A stretch of 27,058 nucleotides of DNA from a virus, in the IMG/VR virus record IMGVR_UViG_3300020478_000052, positions 1 to 27,058 of that record; one strand, given 5' to 3'. This document shows, in pieces, positions 6,449-25,467 of this stretch. A program made the position numbers and the translations under genes. How positions within the stretch are numbered: the stretch's first letter is position 1; every line of letters starts with the position of its first letter. Under the pieces are notes generated by a model. The model saw nothing but the letters and a program-made list of their open reading frames with translations. It did not search any database and was not told the origin of the DNA.

Positions 6449-9013
6449 ATGGCTAGGGTTGCTGTTGAATTAACAAACTTTACAGGTGGTGAGCTATCGC
6501 CAAGATTAGATGGAAGAACTGATCTAACTAAATATACATCTGGTTGCTCAACCTTAGAAAATTTAGTGATATATCCACATGGATCAGCAGCTCGTAGACC
6601 AGGTTCTACATTTGTAGCAGAAGTTGCTGATAGCGATAATAAAACAAGATTAATTCCTTTTGAATTTTCAACAACACAAACTTATATGCTTGAGTTTTCA
6701 AATTTAAAAATGAGAGTGTATAAAGATAGTGGTGCTGTGTTAGAAGGAGATAAAACTATATCTGGAATTACTGCTGCCAATCCTGCTGTTGTAACTGCAA
6801 CTTCACATGGTTATGAAAATGGTGATGAAGTATTGATTAGTGGTGTTTCTGGTATGACAGAAGTTAATAATAAAAGATTTTTAGTTGCAGACAAAACTAC
6901 TAATACATTTGAACTACAAGATAAAGATGGAGTTGATATAAATAGTTCAGGATATACTGCTTATAGTTCTGGTGGTGTGGCTAATAAAGTTTTTGAATTA
7001 ACAACACCTTATACTACTGCACAACTTTTTGATTTAAAATTTGCACAGAGTGCTGATGTTATGTACATCACACATCCTTCACATGAAGTAGAAAAACTAT
7101 CTCGTACTGCTCATACTACTTGGACATTGACAGATGTAGATTTTACCAAAGGACCAATGCAAGATGCTAACACAACTGACACAACTTTAAATCCAGGTCA
7201 ATCAGCAGTAGGTACAGGTATAGCTTTAGTTGCTTCTGCGGTTACTGGTATCAATAGTGGTAGTGGTTTTCTTTCAACAGATGTTGGAAGATTTGTTTAT
7301 TTAAGTGGAGGTTATGCAAAGATAACTGGAGTAACAAATACAACTAATGCAACCATTACAATTATTACAGCTTTAGATAGTGCTAGTGCTACAGCTAATT
7401 GGCAACTAGGAGCTTTCTCTGACACAACAGGTCATCCTTCAAGTGTAACTTTTTTTGAACAAAGATTAGTATTTGCAGGAACAACTGATCAACCACAAAC
7501 AATATTTTTTTCAAAGTCTGGTGATTATGAAAACATGGATGCAAACATTGGTGGTACTGTAGCTGATGATGATGCAATTATTTATACAATTGCATCTAAC
7601 CAAGTTAATGCTATCAGATTTATGACAGCAACTAGAACTTTAATTATTGGTACAGCAGGTGGTGAGTTTACTGTATCAGGAGGTGGTACTGATAGTGCAA
7701 TTACACCTACAAATATATTAATTAAAAAACAATCTAACCATGGCTCGGCAAATGTAGATGCTATAGCTGTAGGTAATGCTACATTATTTTTACAAAGAGC
7801 TAAAAGAAAAATAAGAGAATTAGCTTACAACTTTGATGTTGATGGTTATATTGCTCCTGACATGACTATCCTTGCTGAACATGTTACTGAAGGTGGTTTA
7901 ACACAAATTGCTTATCAACAAGAACCAAATCAAATTGTTTATGCTGCAAGAGGAGATGGTGAGTTAGTAGGATTAACTTATCAAAGAGAACAACAAGTAA
8001 CTGCTTGGCATAGACATATTTTTGGTGGTAGATTTGGTAATGCAACAGTTACAGTTACTGATTATGCAAATATTGCAAATGGTACAAGAATAGTTTTAAC
8101 AAAAGCAGATGGCACAACTACAACCTTTACATCTGCTACATCTTCTACAACTGGAAAATTTCATACAACAACAAGTAACAATCAAAGTGCAACAAACTTA
8201 AAAACATTAATAGATGCTGACTCGGATTTTACAGCAACAGTTAGTAGTAATGTAGTTACCATTACAGAAACATCACCATTGTCTACAGGATTTTTAACTA
8301 TTACATCTTTAGATGATTCTACTCGATTAGCAAAAACTAACGAAGGTAAAGCAGTATGTGAAAGTGTTGCAGTTATTCCAACTGATGATACTGAATATCA
8401 AGTTTATGTAATTGTTAAAAGAACAATCAATGGTGCAACTAGAAGATTTGTAGAAATATTAAATGTATTTGATTTTGATGAAACAGATAATACATCATTT
8501 AATTTTTTAGATAGTGCATTAAGTTATAGTGGTAGTGCTGCTACAACTATTTCTGGATTAGATCATCTTGAAGGACAAACAGTTTCTATATTAGCAGATG
8601 GTGCAACACATCCAGATAAAACTGTTAGTTCTGGTAGTGTAACTTTAGATCGTTCTGTAACAAATGCTAAAATAGGATTAGCTTATACATCTTTATTAAA
8701 AACTATGAGATTAAATGCTGGTTCACAGAATGGTACATCTCAAGGTAAGACAAAAAGAATATATGATATAACAGTTAGAATGTTTGAAACAATAGGTGTA
8801 GAAGTAGGACCTGATCTTTCAAATATGGAACGAATACCATTTAGAAGTTCTGCTGATTTAATGGATGAAGGTATATCACCTTTTACAGGAGATAAAGAAG
8901 TAGAATTTAGAGGAAACTATGAAACAGATGGTTTTATATTTGTTAGGCAAAGACAACCTTTACCTTTTACAATTTTATCGTTATACCCAAGATTAACTAC
9001 AAATGATGGATAA
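6449..9013 (+). CDS. Tail tubular protein B / nozzle (T7 gp12-like)
   Basis: An 854-aa protein, slightly longer than T7 gp12. Its N-terminus (LTNFTGGELSPRLDGRTDL, then YTSGCSTLENLVIYPHGSAARRPG) is highly typical of podovirus nozzle proteins. Residues about 105-180 (ITAANPAVVTATSHGYENGD and the following NNKRFLVADKTTNTFEL) form a small beta module like the FCCH-type insert often seen in these proteins. Further markers are HPSSVTFFEQRLVFAGT and HGSANVDAIAVGNATLFLQR. A Thr/Ser-rich insert at roughly residues 530-620 (TVTVTDYANIANGTR ...) looks like another added beta domain. The protein forms the tail tube tip and contacts the fibres encoded at 15149. It starts 3 bases after the gp11-like gene. 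Confidence 0.94.
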   Translation: MARVAVELTNFTGGELSPRLDGRTDLTKYTSGCSTLENLVIYPHGSAARRPGSTFVAEVADSDNKTRLIPFEFSTTQTYMLEFSNLKMRVYKDSGAVLEGDKTISGITAANPAVVTATSHGYENGDEVLISGVSGMTEVNNKRFLVADKTTNTFELQDKDGVDINSSGYTAYSSGGVANKVFELTTPYTTAQLFDLKFAQSADVMYITHPSHEVEKLSRTAHTTWTLTDVDFTKGPMQDANTTDTTLNPGQSAVGTGIALVASAVTGINSGSGFLSTDVGRFVYLSGGYAKITGVTNTTNATITIITALDSASATANWQLGAFSDTTGHPSSVTFFEQRLVFAGTTDQPQTIFFSKSGDYENMDANIGGTVADDDAIIYTIASNQVNAIRFMTATRTLIIGTAGGEFTVSGGGTDSAITPTNILIKKQSNHGSANVDAIAVGNATLFLQRAKRKIRELAYNFDVDGYIAPDMTILAEHVTEGGLTQIAYQQEPNQIVYAARGDGELVGLTYQREQQVTAWHRHIFGGRFGNATVTVTDYANIANGTRIVLTKADGTTTTFTSATSSTTGKFHTTTSNNQSATNLKTLIDADSDFTATVSSNVVTITETSPLSTGFLTITSLDDSTRLAKTNEGKAVCESVAVIPTDDTEYQVYVIVKRTINGATRRFVEILNVFDFDETDNTSFNFLDSALSYSGSAATTISGLDHLEGQTVSILADGATHPDKTVSSGSVTLDRSVTNAKIGLAYTSLLKTMRLNAGSQNGTSQGKTKRIYDITVRMFETIGVEVGPDLSNMERIPFRSSADLMDEGISPFTGDKEVEFRGNYETDGFIFVRQRQPLPFTILSLYPRLTTNDG

Positions 9014-9458
9014 TATGCTATATATAGTACCTTACACTGCTGAACATGGAAAATTTATTCTATCATGTCAAATGAATCATAAACTTATGGATAAGGATGC
9101 ACAGTTTGATGGAGATGCCATGAACCTTGTGCAAGACCACTTAGCTTTTACAGGATTAGTAAATAACAAACCAATCTTTGCCGCAGGTATGAAAATGATT
9201 TGGGGTCAGGTCGCAGAAGGTTGGGTTATTGCAACACAAGAAGTTTGGCAACATCCACTAGCTGTAGCAAAAGCAATCAAGAAAGATTTTGCAAAGGTTG
9301 CAACAAAATATAATATTAAAAGAGTTCAAACTGCTGTAAGAGCAGACTTTGACAAAGGTATAAGATTTGCAGAATGGTTAGGATTAGAGAACGAGGGATT
9401 AATGAAACACTATGGTTTTGATGGTTCAGACCAATACAGATATGCGAGGATATTTTAA
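9003..9458 (+). CDS. T7 gp13-like protein, GNAT-type fold
   Basis: Up to 151 aa. The first ATG (9003) overlaps the preceding gene by 11 bases; ATGs at 9006 and 9015 are alternatives, and 9015 would avoid the overlap. The product includes VNNKPIFAAGMKMIWGQVAE, followed by a helix LAVAKAIKKDFAKVATKYNI and RFAEWLGLENEGLMKHYGFD. This layout (strand, helix, strand, then 'W-L-G-F/L-x-x-E-G') is that of the acetyltransferase-like protein family that includes T7 gp13, a protein needed for virion maturation. Whether it acetylates anything is unknown; the acetyl-CoA loop is not clearly preserved. Position between nozzle and internal virion genes matches T7 gene order exactly. Confidence 0.82.
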   Translation: MMDNMLYIVPYTAEHGKFILSCQMNHKLMDKDAQFDGDAMNLVQDHLAFTGLVNNKPIFAAGMKMIWGQVAEGWVIATQEVWQHPLAVAKAIKKDFAKVATKYNIKRVQTAVRADFDKGIRFAEWLGLENEGLMKHYGFDGSDQYRYARIF

Positions 9459-9934
9459 TGTCATCAGCAATACCATTTATAGGACCAACAGTATCTTTAA
9501 TTCAAGCAAAGAACGCTACCGAAATAGGAAAATTTAATCAAAGAGTATTTAATAGAAATGCTGTAGTTGCTGAACAAGAAGCTGAAAGAATAAAACAAAA
9601 ATTAAATTTTGATATTGCAAGATTTGATGATCAATTTTTACGATTACAAGGTTCAACAAAAACAAGAATATTAAAATCGGGTGTAGAGCTTTCTGGTACT
9701 TCTTTAAAAATTTTAAGAAGTAATGTTGAACAAGCAGAAATTCAAAAAGATGTTATGGAGTATAATGCAAAAGTTGAAGAAAGCAGAAAACTTGAAGAAG
9801 CAAACTTTGCTAGAATAGAAGGCACTATGGCAAGAAACAGAGCAAGGATGCAAGCATTAGGATATATTGCAAGTGCTGGTTCAAGTTTATTAACTAACTT
9901 TGGTAATCCTTATGGAGGAAATACAAATGCCTAA
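9458..9934 (+). CDS. Internal virion / ejection protein (T7 gp14 position)
   Basis: A 158-aa protein starting on the final A of the previous stop, with GAGG 12 nt upstream. It is mostly helical and charged, with an N-terminal apolar stretch (AIPFIGPTVSLIQA), a long Glu/Lys/Arg helix (NAVVAEQEAERIKQKLNFDI) and a C-terminal Gly/Ser-rich segment ALGYIASAGSSLLTNFGNPY. The pattern matches the small ejection protein that precedes the two large ones in T7-like phages; in T7, gp14 forms the outer-membrane channel for DNA entry. Direct sequence similarity to gp14 is not claimed. The assignment rests on position, size and composition. Confidence 0.75.
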   Translation: MSSAIPFIGPTVSLIQAKNATEIGKFNQRVFNRNAVVAEQEAERIKQKLNFDIARFDDQFLRLQGSTKTRILKSGVELSGTSLKILRSNVEQAEIQKDVMEYNAKVEESRKLEEANFARIEGTMARNRARMQALGYIASAGSSLLTNFGNPYGGNTNA

Positions 9935-11765
9935 GATTCCTACATTTACAGCTACAGCAGAAATGACTAATAGATCATCTGCTATTCAAACTAAATTACA
10001 AGCTAGTATGAAAGATTCTCCTCTTACAGCTTTAGAACCTGCTATTGCTCAAACAACAAAATATTATTTAAAACAAAGAGATATATTAGAAAAAACAGAA
10101 GCAAAGAAAAAAGCATTAGAAGTATTTACTGAAGCAGATACTATTGTTGCAGATTTAGAAAACAACTCAAATGAAGAAGAAGCATTATCAATATTTAATG
10201 AAAAATTTAATACAATATTAAATACTAAACTAGGAACTACAGATAACGCTAGAATAAAAAGTTTATTACAAAATACAGTTGATATTAATTTACCAAAAAG
10301 AATTACAAATGTTAAAACTAATTCAAGAAACGCATTAGAAAAAGATTTAGAAATTACACACAACAATACACAGAATATTCTTTCTAATGAATATCTTGTT
10401 GCAACAGATGCTGAAACTAAAACAACAATATTAGATCAAGCAATTAATGAAGAAATAGATTATGGAAATCAAATAGGATTATCAAAAATTCAAACACAAA
10501 AAAATGTTGATAAAGTAAAACAAAGTTATTTAATATCAGATGTAAATAAATTAATAGAAAATAAACAATATGCTGCAGCAGATGCTATTTTAAAAAATAC
10601 AAAAGATTCTCCTTTTTTAGATGTTGAAGAAAGAAAAGATTTATTAGCAAAAGTTGAAGAAGGATTTAAAGAAGATTTAGCACAAGCTAATATTAATAAT
10701 TTAATAATAAACAAAGTTGGTTCAGAAGCGGTGGGAGCTGAATTAGAAAATGTTGATGGTAATAAGATTACTAAAAAAAATATATCTTCTGGTTTGAATA
10801 AATTACTTCTTGAAACTAATGATGATGGTTCTCCTAAATATTCAACATCACAAATGATAGAATTTTCAATAGGTAATAATGCTTCTGTGCCAAGTTATAA
10901 AGAATCATTAGTAGCAGGAGCAGCTAATATGACAGATACTGGAGATCAATCAAAAGTATTACAAGGATTTCAATTATATAAATTATTTAAAGTACAAAAC
11001 GCAGATGAAGTATTAATGAAAACTTATAACATATCTCAATCAGATATAGAAAGTTATGAGGCATTAGATTATTCAATTAATACATTAGGTGAAACATTTG
11101 AAGCAGCATTGAATAGACAAATAAGAACAAGAGCTGGTGATTTTAAAGAAAGAAATATTGATGATAAAAAAATTGATTCAAGAATAAATGAATTAGATTT
11201 TCAAGGTCAAGGTTTATTAGATTTTGGTTCTCCAGATGTAAATAATATTCAAGTTGTTGAAAATATTTTAAAATATACTGCTAATATGTATTATAAAGCT
11301 GGAGGTTCTGAAGATACTGCATTAGAAGCAGCAGAAAAATTTTTAGAAAAAAACTTTCGTATAGATAGTTTTGGTCAAGTAGTAAGAATTGATCCTAGAA
11401 TACCAGAGTATCATGATGAATCTATTAAATTATTTATTAAAACTTTATATGATGAAGGTAAAATTAATAAAGAAAAAAATGAATTAGAAGATATTATTCC
11501 TCAATACTATGATTATAGTAAATATAATATTCAAGGTTTTACCTTAATAAATAAACAAACTGGTGAACCATTATACTTACAATCAGAAGATTTTGATGAA
11601 GAACCTTATTCTGTTGGAAGATTTACTCAAGCACAAATAGAAGAAGTTATTTATAAACCATTTAAGTCAAATGAATACGAGAAATTTAAAATTGAGTTTG
11701 AAAAAAGAAAACAAATGAAACTAGAAGCTGAGAATTTTGGTTTAGGAATATATGATGGTCCATAA
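9927..11765 (+). CDS. Internal virion protein (T7 gp15 position)
   Basis: A 612-aa, helix-rich, acidic/asparagine-rich protein. The ATG at 9927 is chosen over one at 9900 because GGAGG lies at 9914-9918 with normal spacing; it then overlaps the preceding gene by 8 bases. Landmarks: IPTFTATAEMTNRSSAIQTK at the N-terminus, repeated charged helices, and no TM segments or enzymatic motifs. In T7-like virions the second ejection protein forms a periplasmic tunnel with the third, and this gene sits between the small and very large ejection genes. Codon use is extremely AT-rich compared with the capsid gene. The function is assigned by position and architecture only. Confidence 0.75.
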   Translation: MPKIPTFTATAEMTNRSSAIQTKLQASMKDSPLTALEPAIAQTTKYYLKQRDILEKTEAKKKALEVFTEADTIVADLENNSNEEEALSIFNEKFNTILNTKLGTTDNARIKSLLQNTVDINLPKRITNVKTNSRNALEKDLEITHNNTQNILSNEYLVATDAETKTTILDQAINEEIDYGNQIGLSKIQTQKNVDKVKQSYLISDVNKLIENKQYAAADAILKNTKDSPFLDVEERKDLLAKVEEGFKEDLAQANINNLIINKVGSEAVGAELENVDGNKITKKNISSGLNKLLLETNDDGSPKYSTSQMIEFSIGNNASVPSYKESLVAGAANMTDTGDQSKVLQGFQLYKLFKVQNADEVLMKTYNISQSDIESYEALDYSINTLGETFEAALNRQIRTRAGDFKERNIDDKKIDSRINELDFQGQGLLDFGSPDVNNIQVVENILKYTANMYYKAGGSEDTALEAAEKFLEKNFRIDSFGQVVRIDPRIPEYHDESIKLFIKTLYDEGKINKEKNELEDIIPQYYDYSKYNIQGFTLINKQTGEPLYLQSEDFDEEPYSVGRFTQAQIEEVIYKPFKSNEYEKFKIEFEKRKQMKLEAENFGLGIYDGP

Positions 11766-23024: not shown

Positions 23025-23386
23025 TGAAGGTAAGCGAAAATACCTCAGTTGCCATGCCAATCAAAAATATGATTGGTATTGTTATAGCTGTAGCCATGGG
23101 TATATTTGCATACACCGAATTGACTTCTAGGTTGACTTCGTTAGAGACATCAAGAGAATTATTTAGTAGTGATTTACTTAAAAAGTCTGAGCAAGTTCCT
23201 ACTGACCAGGAACAGTTTATGTTGCTTGAACACATGGCTAGTCAAATAGAAGAGTTAGAAAAAGAAATGCAAGGCATGAGAAATAACACAGTTAATCTTA
23301 ATAGAGCTATGGAAGATATAAAAAATATAGAAGTAAACATAGAAAATATGAAAGATAAAATTAGAAATAATAATGGTAACTATTAA
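23024..23386 (+). CDS. TM + long coiled-coil protein (i-spanin-like candidate)
   Basis: A 120-aa protein. Residues 13-32 are apolar (KNMIGIVIAVAMGIFAYTEL); the rest is a long charged heptad-type helix with LTSRLTSLETSRELF, LEHMASQIEELEKEMQGM and NIENMKDKIRNN. An N-terminal membrane anchor followed by a periplasmic coiled coil is the architecture of inner-membrane spanins (Rz). A small lipoprotein (23592) lies two genes downstream, so a two-component spanin is possible. Similar 'MKVSENTSVxMP' proteins are familiar from marine phages, but without a proven role. Confidence 0.7.
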   Translation: MKVSENTSVAMPIKNMIGIVIAVAMGIFAYTELTSRLTSLETSRELFSSDLLKKSEQVPTDQEQFMLLEHMASQIEELEKEMQGMRNNTVNLNRAMEDIKNIEVNIENMKDKIRNNNGNY

Positions 23387-23595
23387 TGAACGATAAAATC
23401 ATTACAGTATTATTGGCTATTTTAATAGCACTATCTGGTTGGTCTTTATCCACAACAGTAGGTTTAAAATCAGATGTAGCAGTATTAAAAGAAAAGGTAT
23501 CTAAAATGGAAAAGGATATAGAAGAAGCTGTTTGGAATAGTATTGATTTAAGTAAAAAGAAAAAGAAGAAAAAGAATAAGAAGAAAAAGAAATGA
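23386..23595 (+). CDS. TM + coiled-coil protein with poly-Lys tail
   Basis: A 69-aa protein starting on the last base of the previous stop. N-terminal apolar helix IITVLLAILIALSGWSLS, then the heptad segment DVAVLKEKVSKMEKDIEEAV, and a tail made almost only of lysine (about residues 57-69). The first 45 residues align well with the gene at 23750 (LLIALGGWSLS ... AVLEDKVERLE), so the two are paralogues flanking the lipoprotein gene. It could be an inner-membrane spanin-like or lysis-regulator protein; the polycationic tail is unusual for Rz. Confidence 0.65.
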   Translation: MNDKIITVLLAILIALSGWSLSTTVGLKSDVAVLKEKVSKMEKDIEEAVWNSIDLSKKKKKKKNKKKKK

Positions 23596-24087: not shown

Positions 24088-24299
24088 TAGAAGTTGTTTT
24101 TGCATTATTATTAATAGTAGATCACGAAATCAAGGAACATAGAATCCAAGATAGTTTGTCTAAATGTCTTAAAGCTAAAAGATATGCTATGAGAGATAAA
24201 AAAGCTGGAGATAGGGTTCAATATAAATGTATTAAATCAAAAGCTAACATAGAAATCTATATGGGAGAGAAGAAAATAACTTCTTTAATATTAGAATAA
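24084..24299 (+). CDS. Small protein with N-terminal apolar helix and two Cys
   Basis: A 71-aa protein with GAGGAG 5 nt upstream of ATG. The N-terminus MIEVVFALLLIVDHEIKEHR has a short apolar stretch that could be a signal peptide or anchor. Downstream are Cys28 (SLSKCLKAKRYAM) and Cys54 (RVQYKCIKSKANIEI), a spacing compatible with one disulfide in the periplasm. The pattern is familiar among marine podovirus/myovirus hypothetical proteins ('SLSxCLKAKR ... VxYxCxKSxA'), but I know of no function. It ends with TAATG coupling to the next gene. Confidence 0.7.
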   Translation: MIEVVFALLLIVDHEIKEHRIQDSLSKCLKAKRYAMRDKKAGDRVQYKCIKSKANIEIYMGEKKITSLILE

Positions 24300-24412
24300 T
24301 GATTGATAAAATTTTAATAAAATTCTTTGGTTTAATAGATGATCTAAATGAAAAGATAAGTAATCTATTAACCTTTAAATTATGTAGCTGTAAAAAAAAG
24401 AAAAAAAAATAA
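24299..24412 (+). CDS. Tiny protein with CxC and poly-Lys tail (37 aa)
   Basis: A 37-aa open frame coupled by TAATG. It reads as an amphipathic helix (MIDKILIKFFGLIDDLNEKI) followed by a CSC pair and a C-terminal run of six Lys. It is the third tiny product in this block with a lysine tail. The A-rich end (A8-G-A9) forms the T-tract of the leftward terminator on the opposite strand, so the coding sequence and terminator overlap. Translation is plausible but not certain. Confidence 0.45.
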   Translation: MIDKILIKFFGLIDDLNEKISNLLTFKLCSCKKKKKK

Positions 24413-24437
24413 GGCGACCATATTTCAGATCGCCTTA
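24410..24437. terminator. Bidirectional intrinsic terminator at the convergence point
   Basis: Stem TAAGGCGA (24410-24417) with TCGCCTTA (24430-24437), 12-nt loop. On the minus strand it is followed by a long T-tract (complement of the A-run before 24410), making a strong leftward terminator. On the plus strand the following TTAAATTTATTTAATC tract is weaker. It separates rightward late genes from the leftward 61-aa gene. Confidence 0.88.
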
Positions 24438-24444
24438 AATTTAT

Positions 24445-24630
24445 TTAATCTTTAATTTGTTTTTTATATTGCTTGATAAACTTTTCACTTCCAGTTTTAA
24501 AGTCATCATACAATATTCTCCAATAAACAGATAAATTGTTTTCAGAATATAATTTATCTATTTCTTCAAAGTAATTTAAACAAGCACTTGCGATAGCTTG
24601 TGCTTCTTTATCTTTTAATTTAAAGTTCAT
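24445..24630 (-). CDS. 61-aa protein driven by a consensus promoter
   Basis: A small leftward protein, MNFKLKDKEAQAIASACLNY followed by FEEIDKLYSENNLSVYWRIL, and a charged C-terminus. It looks helical and soluble, with no TM, zinc or clear HTH motif. Support for a real gene is strong: AGAAAGGA precedes the ATG, a perfect sigma-70 promoter lies at 24653-24681, and an intrinsic terminator begins 8 bases after its stop. Such a monocistronic unit resembles a phage 'moron' or an early host-modulating gene. Function unknown. It is opposite to the adjacent late operon and may be expressed immediately after infection by host polymerase. Confidence 0.8.
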   Translation of the reverse strand: MNFKLKDKEAQAIASACLNYFEEIDKLYSENNLSVYWRILYDDFKTGSEKFIKQYKKQIKD

Positions 24631-24652
24631 ATTGTTTTTCCTTTCTAAATCT

Positions 24653-24681
24653 ATTATATACTATTTGGATATGCTTGTCAA
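24653..24681 (-). promoter_or_regulatory. Perfect consensus sigma-70 promoter (leftward)
   Basis: Read on the minus strand: TTGACA (24681-24676), exactly 17 nt, then TATAAT (24658-24653). Both hexamers match consensus exactly. The predicted transcript starts near 24646 and leaves a 15-nt leader with AAAGGA before the ATG at 24630. No other promoter in the window comes near this quality. Confidence 0.9.
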
Positions 24682-24708: not shown

Positions 24709-24894
24709 GTGCAAAAAAAAACTTGGAATAAATCAAAGTTAAGAGAGTTTATTTGTGGTTATTGTAATTGGTGTAAGAAAGAATTATTAAATACCATGGG
24801 TGGATGGATTGTAAATGCAGAACACAAACACTTTTGCCATGATGGTAAGGATGGTTCTTGCTTTGATAAGTATTGTATATTTACTAAGAAATAA
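24709..24894 (+). CDS. Cys-rich, probably zinc-binding small protein
   Basis: About 61 aa from GTG 24709; the frame is open up to 24682 and the true start is unclear. The sequence includes FICGYCNWCKKEL (a C-x2-C-x2-C group), then EHKHFCHDGKDGSCFDKYC, rich in Cys and His and well suited to hold one or two zinc ions. That composition would be unlikely by chance in so AT-rich a genome and no better frame exists on the other strand. It lies between two leftward genes and its end overlaps the DnaA-like gene by 11 bases, tail to tail. A DNA- or protein-binding regulator is possible. No function is known to me. Confidence 0.6.
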   Translation: MQKKTWNKSKLREFICGYCNWCKKELLNTMGGWIVNAEHKHFCHDGKDGSCFDKYCIFTKK

Positions 24895-25417
24895 GTTCTT
24901 GAAACTCTTGCCAAATAGTTTGCTCATCACTCCAGAATCTTCTTTTATGCAGCTTCATTTCTATTGAATGTAAAACTGTAGTATGATCTTGTCCAAAAAT
25001 TCTACCTATATCTGATAGACTCATCTTATATTTTTCATTTAATATATTGTGAATAATATTTCTTGATCTAACAATATCTGTAGTTCTAGTCTTGGTAAAT
25101 AATTCTTTCTTACTTACTTCATACTTAATACAAACTTTATTAATTACAGAATCTATTTCTATTTTCTTAGGTTTTCTAAATTGATAACCAATAATCTTTC
25201 GTTCCATCTGTCTTGGTACAATATGTGTTTCTTTTATTTCTGTAATATGATTTGACATTTTTTGTTGTGCTAACTCAAAACCTTTTTTAAATCCTGCTTT
25301 ATACAACTTTAATTCTCTATCTGATAATAAATAAAAAGCTATCTTATGTTTATAAATAAAGTCATTGTTGTTTATTTTTTTAATATGTTTTTGAAATTCT
25401 TGTTTATATAAAGTCAT
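24884..25417 (-). CDS. DnaA domain-IV-like DNA-binding protein
   Basis: A 177-aa protein. ATG 25417 is chosen over an in-frame upstream ATG at 25453 because GGGGGA sits 4 bases before it. Residues ~88-160 carry the DnaA C-terminal DNA-binding signature: IEIDSVINKVCIKYEVSKKE, IVRSRNIIHNIL, MSLSDIGRIFGQDHTTVLHS. The GQDHTTVLH motif is the DnaA-box-contact helix. The AAA+ ATPase domain of DnaA is absent; in its place is a ~85-residue helical basic N-terminus with no recognised domain. It could mark the phage origin, recruit host replication proteins, or block host DnaA; none is proven. It belongs to the leftward replication group. Confidence 0.85.
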   Translation of the reverse strand: MTLYKQEFQKHIKKINNNDFIYKHKIAFYLLSDRELKLYKAGFKKGFELAQQKMSNHITEIKETHIVPRQMERKIIGYQFRKPKKIEIDSVINKVCIKYEVSKKELFTKTRTTDIVRSRNIIHNILNEKYKMSLSDIGRIFGQDHTTVLHSIEMKLHKRRFWSDEQTIWQEFQELIS

Positions 25418-25467
25418 AAATCCCCCTATAAATTTGTTTGTTTTTTTTATCAATGTAAACTAATGAG

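Follow-up and report, generated by a model that had tools for sequence, protein, structure and literature searches.

An antisense unit within the late genes

The window, that is, the whole stretch of 27,058 nucleotides analysed here, is a 27-kb fragment of an HTVC010P-type pelagiphage, a virus of the commonest bacteria in the ocean. Its major capsid, portal and large tail proteins are 97%, 92% and 91% identical, respectively, to those of HTVC010P. The unit under study spans positions 24681–24401 on the minus strand and consists of a promoter, a Shine-Dalgarno sequence, an ORF of 61 aa, a hairpin and a T tract. A sequence-only reading of the window had described an exact TTGACA-17-TATAAT promoter, a leader with AAAGGA, the 61-aa ORF and a terminator with a T tract, and each of these elements was confirmed in the sequence.

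The left border is formed by a late gene on the plus strand (24299–24412, clustered as context D1), which encodes a protein of 37 aa with KKKKKK at its C-terminus. The TAA stop codon of this gene (24410–24412) forms part of the hairpin stem. A C-terminal lysine run, KKKKKKKKNKKKKK, is also seen in a small membrane-like protein encoded at 23386–23595 on the plus strand. The right border is a second plus-strand late gene (24709–24894, GTG start), encoding a Cys/His-rich protein of 61 aa with relatives at the equivalent position in HTVC010P, 034P, 035P, 203P, 204P, 100P, 024P and Skadi-4; we judge this ORF to be a genuine late gene. With late genes on both sides, the unit thus lies antisense inside the late operon, near its end. 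The earlier placement of the unit at the convergence of the two operons was incorrect, as the late gene at 24709–24894 separates it from the convergent, early DnaA-like gene (24884–25453, minus strand; Bac_DnaA_C, 1e-17). The sole recognised part of the DnaA-like protein is the C-terminal DNA-binding domain, no ATPase domain being found in it. Such a protein might possibly compete for, or mark, replication origins.

The −35 hexamer TTGACA (24676–24681) and the −10 hexamer TATAAT (24653–24658) lie on the minus strand with a 17-base spacer between them. The surrounding 28-mer, CTTGACAAGCATATCCAAATAGTATATA, is also present in 11 other contigs, and most relatives have TATACT as the −10 hexamer. 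The promoter scores 12/12 against TTGACA-17-TATAAT and is the only exact copy in the window. The claim that the window has no equally good host-type promoter was upheld: the only other site scoring at least 11/12 is TTGACA-17-TGTAAT at 1819 on the minus strand, within the portal gene. Under a first-order Markov model of the window, 0.09 exact promoters per window would be expected by chance, so that the exact match alone is suggestive and not decisive. Chance can be excluded for the unit, however, because the promoter sequence occurs in 11 other contigs and the hairpin in 100. The Shine-Dalgarno sequence AAAGGA (24639–24644, minus strand) is 8 bases 3′ of the −10 hexamer and 8 bases 5′ of the ATG at 24630.

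Properties of the 61-aa protein

The ORF carried by the unit (24445–24630, minus strand), referred to below as the cargo, is an accessory gene with a G+C content of 23.1%, compared with 31.1% for the late region and 32% for the window. Its product matched no Pfam family above the cut-off and has three predicted helices. An AlphaFold2 model made from 13 sequences contained three helices (pLDDT 83, pTM 0.62); the best E value in a fold search with this model was 0.6, and no solved inhibitor was structurally similar. A tblastn search against named phages gave no convincing match.

The dN/dS ratio of the gene was 0.25 relative to its nearest relative, a closest pair with only 12 substitutions, and 0.1–0.7 for most pairs. 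On these codon comparisons, purifying selection acts on the gene. Absence of the gene together with a dN/dS near 1 had been named beforehand as the outcome that would speak against a functional unit; the value of 0.25 for the nearest relative is of the opposite kind.

Relatives of the 61-aa protein were found in cassette loci L197, L206, L207, L208 and L210/L211, the last two being nearly identical. Locus L209 has the promoter and a relative of the protein, on a contig that stops at the stop codon. Other relatives sit in operons of unrelated phages. Those in L198/L199 immediately precede a gene whose copy in L003 has ArdcN and MPTase-PolyVal (zincin) domains and which, by this domain content, is that of an ArdC-type anti-restriction protein. 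L003 and L198 are the same contig, and the ArdC link thus comprises two contigs in which the relative sits in an operon and not in a cassette. The 61-aa protein itself had no homology to known counter-defence proteins.

A putative terminator hairpin with a constant stem

The putative terminator hairpin (24410–24437, minus strand) has a 10-bp stem and an octaloop, around GGCGATC-TGAAATAT-GGTCGCC. It starts 7 bases past the stop codon of the 61-aa ORF, shares bases with the TAA of the 37-aa late gene on the plus strand, and is followed by a T tract (T9, 24401–24409, minus strand). The hairpin energy is −16.2 kcal/mol, as against −4.2 ± 2.1 kcal/mol for shuffled sequences (z = −5.7), and none of 200 shuffles equalled it.

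A scan of 2.9 million viral contigs with the pattern GGCNNTCTGAAATATGGNNGCC matched 100 contigs, and the free stem positions paired at 101/101 distinct viral sites, window included. A control scan with a permuted loop matched no viral contigs. Scanning with an AGAAAT loop gave at least 120 contigs, and 117 of 122 sites were paired among the matches listed. At cassette sites the loop varies (AGAAAT, TATAT) and the stem is constant. Rfam contained no family at the gathering score, and a relaxed search gave sub-threshold chance matches only. The hairpin was therefore interpreted as a terminator in which a GAAA-type loop is favoured. The same observations led us to drop the 12-base loop TCTGAAATATGG as a candidate conserved RNA motif, a reading first suggested by the perfect pairing at all 101 sites. 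A reading of the loop as a tRNA anticodon or as lambda boxB was dropped, as stem register and position do not suit it. A text search of the literature for the loop sequence returned human-gene papers only, as judged by their titles. Matches of a short DNA query in Klebsiella, Vibrio and Salmonella covered the query in part and were treated as chance.

The balance between the two strands may differ among phages. In HTVC106P-like contexts, few T residues follow the hairpin on the cargo strand (mean 3.3/10), so that the hairpin there may serve mainly the late strand. The T content of the late strand beside the hairpin is 5.5–6.5/10.

Octaloop hairpins of the form UC-UGAAAUAU-GG (or UGAAACAU) are also found at the ends of genes in numerous unrelated phages. 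Besides that of the window at 24410–24437, examples are found in L020, L033, L041, L049, L065, L077 and L091, and further ones in L095, L104, L110, L118, L124, L126 and L193. They probably also act as gene ends in bacterial chromosomes, where the genes before them presumably resemble those for ribosomal protein S20 and phosphotransacetylase. To our knowledge, a favoured terminator octaloop of this kind has not been described before.

Empty and occupied sites in isolates

The late genes that flank the unit are contiguous or overlapping in HTVC010P, 034P, 203P, 204P, 100P, 024P and Skadi-4, and no antisense gene is annotated at the site in these seven isolates. The site is occupied in HTVC035P by gp28, a gene for a protein of 138 aa that is unrelated to the window cargo and has the identical hairpin, GGCGATCTGAAATATGGTCGCC. 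HTVC111P carries a lone opposite-strand gene, gp32, between the portal gene and gp33, the next head gene. This gene terminates in GGCGATC-TATAT-GGTCGCC beside the portal stop codon, and no good promoter was found for it. The portal, capsid and tail proteins of the window had no match in HTVC106P or HTVC111P. For Skadi-1, promoters but no terminators have been reported (PMC10504331), which fits an empty slot in the HTVC010P-type group, the slot of Skadi-4 being empty here. The hypervariable region reported in that paper is a different one, made up of virion and tail genes (PMC10504331).

Constant ends and variable cargo across viral contigs

Among the matches listed from IMG/VR, at least 93 paired hairpin sites adjoin five late-gene contexts. 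These contexts correspond to three pelagiphage groups, HTVC010P-type, HTVC106P-like and HTVC111P-type, an assignment made from neighbouring genes and named isolates and partly inferential. The loci are mostly metagenome contigs, some of them near-identical to one another. Upstream of the hairpins lie at least 21 mutually unrelated small cargo families (BLAST E 1e-4), and at least eight families are shared by two or more contexts, each spanning at least two of the three groups. No convincing match to the cargo families was found in Pfam, PHROGs, PDB or fold searches. The geometry of the site is well kept: among the matches listed, the cargo stop codon lies 7–12 bases before the hairpin core at 84 of 91 sites, and a late-gene stop codon comes immediately after the hairpin at 70 of 93.

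The opposite end is also shared. The window-type promoter stands 5′ of seven unrelated ORF families (61/68, 77, 86, 94, 98, 123 and 148 aa). A second exact TTGACA-17-TATAAT promoter, TTGACAAATGATTTACAATATGTTATAAT, with 29 identical bases, stands 5′ of two families in one backbone, namely a 69-aa member of the window family in L257/L211 and a 137-aa gene in L227, with syntenic surroundings. The 137-aa family of L227 is also found behind the window-type promoter in L027. In five loci of the same group, identity to the window is 90–96% across the 50 bases upstream of the promoter, drops to 35–55% from 10 bases past the 27-base promoter block, and picks up again about 10 bases before the hairpin. 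The break in homology at the promoter end falls at the −10 box. The sequence-only reading had named conservation of the promoter–gene–terminator block in related phages as a check. Across the loci, promoter and hairpin are kept and the gene enclosed by them changes, a feature that could not be seen from the window alone.

Not every locus has both ends. L195 has the window promoter and lacks the cassette hairpin, and several two-gene HTVC106P-like loci have cargo without a good promoter. In the window, a hairpin and a promoter of these types each occur once, on either side of the cargo gene. L127 (PBPJ01000001.1), a pelagiphage cassette locus whose hairpin is flanked by sequence similar to that in L090, is filed under a Woesearchaeota MAG, which is probably a binning error.

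A probable moron-type cassette in an exchange slot

At the level of sequence, the anatomy of the unit, the empty sites, the swapping of ORFs between constant ends, the presence of cargo families across unrelated backbones and purifying selection can be regarded as established. We consider it likely that the unit is a moron-type cassette, in which a host-type sigma-70 promoter and an intrinsic terminator enclose a single small ORF that can be interchanged, and which sits antisense at a gene boundary of the late operon.

The comparison with morons, made already in the sequence-only reading, proved apt. As in morons known from lambdoid and other phages (Juhala et al. 2000; Hendrix et al. 1999, as cited in PMC7067206 and PMC2784084), a single accessory gene with its own promoter and terminator, antisense to the lytic genes and of a base composition unlike its surroundings (here a lower G+C), lies between genes that are contiguous in relatives. 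The site is empty in the seven isolates, and the gene is also present in unrelated phages. Judged by its sequence features, the unit has those that define a moron. It differs in that the same promoter and hairpin enclose different genes from locus to locus, and in that the gene families span SAR11-infecting phage groups with unrelated structural genes. Among the papers searched, none contained both the words moron and pelagiphage.

In such a cassette, host RNA polymerase would transcribe the cargo from the cassette promoter, independently of phage timing, so that the cargo could be made as soon as the genome enters the cell, or from a prophage if lysogeny occurs. The hairpin would end the cargo transcript and would probably also damp read-through on the late strand. 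The ORF may be swapped by homologous or single-strand-annealing recombination, the two cassette ends, promoter and hairpin, serving as short homology arms; we infer recombination at the cassette ends from the boundaries of identity. An ERF annealing protein is encoded in the window, and ERF-family proteins are of a kind able to use short homologies.

Ordinary mosaicism is the best of the competing explanations, and appears rather doubtful. It would require a tolerant spot, a promoter belonging to the backbone and a common intrinsic terminator, with no role for the ends in exchange. The promoter type does follow the backbone, being window-type in HTVC010P-type loci and of the TGTGGTATAAT type in HTVC106P-like loci. 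GAAA-bearing terminator hairpins are also common, as seen in the 120 or more contigs with an AGAAAT loop, and the same loop occurs in probable chromosomal terminators of bacterial genomes. Mosaicism of this kind accords poorly, however, with the recurrence of ORF families in three unrelated backbones, in a similar place and with the same hairpin sequence, with the tight spacing from stop codon to hairpin, or with the finding that the loop with its bases reordered was in no viral contig.

It is unlikely that the 61-aa protein is an immediate-early takeover factor, made first and binding a piece of host machinery, RNA polymerase for example. Most isolated relatives lack the gene, and unrelated genes can take its place, which argues that it is not essential to takeover, and its model resembles no solved inhibitor structure. 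A consensus host promoter of a compatible type, a short leader, a small protein predicted to be helical and purifying selection would nevertheless all suit such a role. Improbable to a similar degree is lysogenic conversion, whereby the gene would be expressed from a prophage and would protect or alter the host, as classical morons do. The late operon of a close relative, the isolate HTVC028P, includes an integrase gene close to its end (L190 388–1665, equal to HTVC028P 8887–10164), so that some HTVC010P-type members may be temperate, and morons in prophages often lie antisense to the lytic genes and carry a promoter of their own (PMC7067206); HTVC010P and HTVC034P, however, have no annotated integrase. 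That the hairpin itself is the functional part, its conserved loop belonging to a regulatory RNA or a protein-binding site and the ORF being incidental, is very unlikely, for although the UC-UGAAAUAU-GG loop and its freely covarying stem recur in unrelated phages (101/101 distinct viral sites), the loop at cassette sites is replaced by AGAAAT or TATAT on an unchanged stem, no Rfam family reached the gathering score, and the ORF is under selection.

Possible roles of the cargo

For a moron-type cassette of this kind, the cargo would most likely act in counter-defence or superinfection exclusion, with one gene per phage, quickly replaced. A more tentative proposal, to which we give somewhat less than even weight, is that unrelated pelagiphages trade single-gene weapons via a shared slot. 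The promoter and the GGCGATC/GGTCGCC terminator would then be the recombination arms, so that any gene landing between the slot ends would be expressed at once, as in an integron without an integrase.

Pelagiphages are among the sea's most abundant viruses, and their accessory genes are nearly all without known function. With a slot recognisable by its promoter, hairpin and fixed position, small ORFs that were anonymous before can be grouped into at least 21 defined cargo families, and further cargo genes can be collected by the same marks. If the cargo does act in counter-defence or exclusion, it would offer a direct way into SAR11 immunity, a little-known field. If phages do draw on a shared pool of such genes, integron-like exchange without a dedicated integrase would be taking place in the most abundant marine phages.

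Relation to other promoter-bordered gene systems

At anti-CRISPR loci, a strong conserved acr promoter precedes varied small counter-defence ORFs. The cassette is similar in that a strong promoter is retained while small ORFs vary, and different in that it has no aca-type HTH regulator gene. We know of no anti-CRISPR activity for cassette cargo.

Promoter early stem-loops (PeSLs) are composite elements, with a terminator next to a promoter in one intergenic spot and many copies per genome. In T4-type phages, the promoter and terminator stem-loop border exchangeable small genes and have been proposed to mediate their shuffling (Arbiol et al. 2010; Comeau et al. 2014, as cited in PMC4503421 and PMC3950731), a likeness to the present unit. 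Here, in contrast, the gene separates the promoter from the hairpin, and each genome has a single copy, oriented antisense within the late operon. If a PeSL is defined as composite and multi-copy, as generally understood and as the citing papers give it, the cassette is not one. The cassette carries the concept of promoter-terminator-bordered gene exchange over from T4-type phages to small phages whose hosts are streamlined. Separately, the sequence GGCAGGT-TGAAATAT-ACCTGCC followed by CTTTGTGCTATAATA is common to several phage contigs (L130, L131, L138, L148 and others). In these L130-type contigs, a terminator-like hairpin directly abuts an extended −10 promoter-like sequence, forming a composite unit that does resemble a PeSL.
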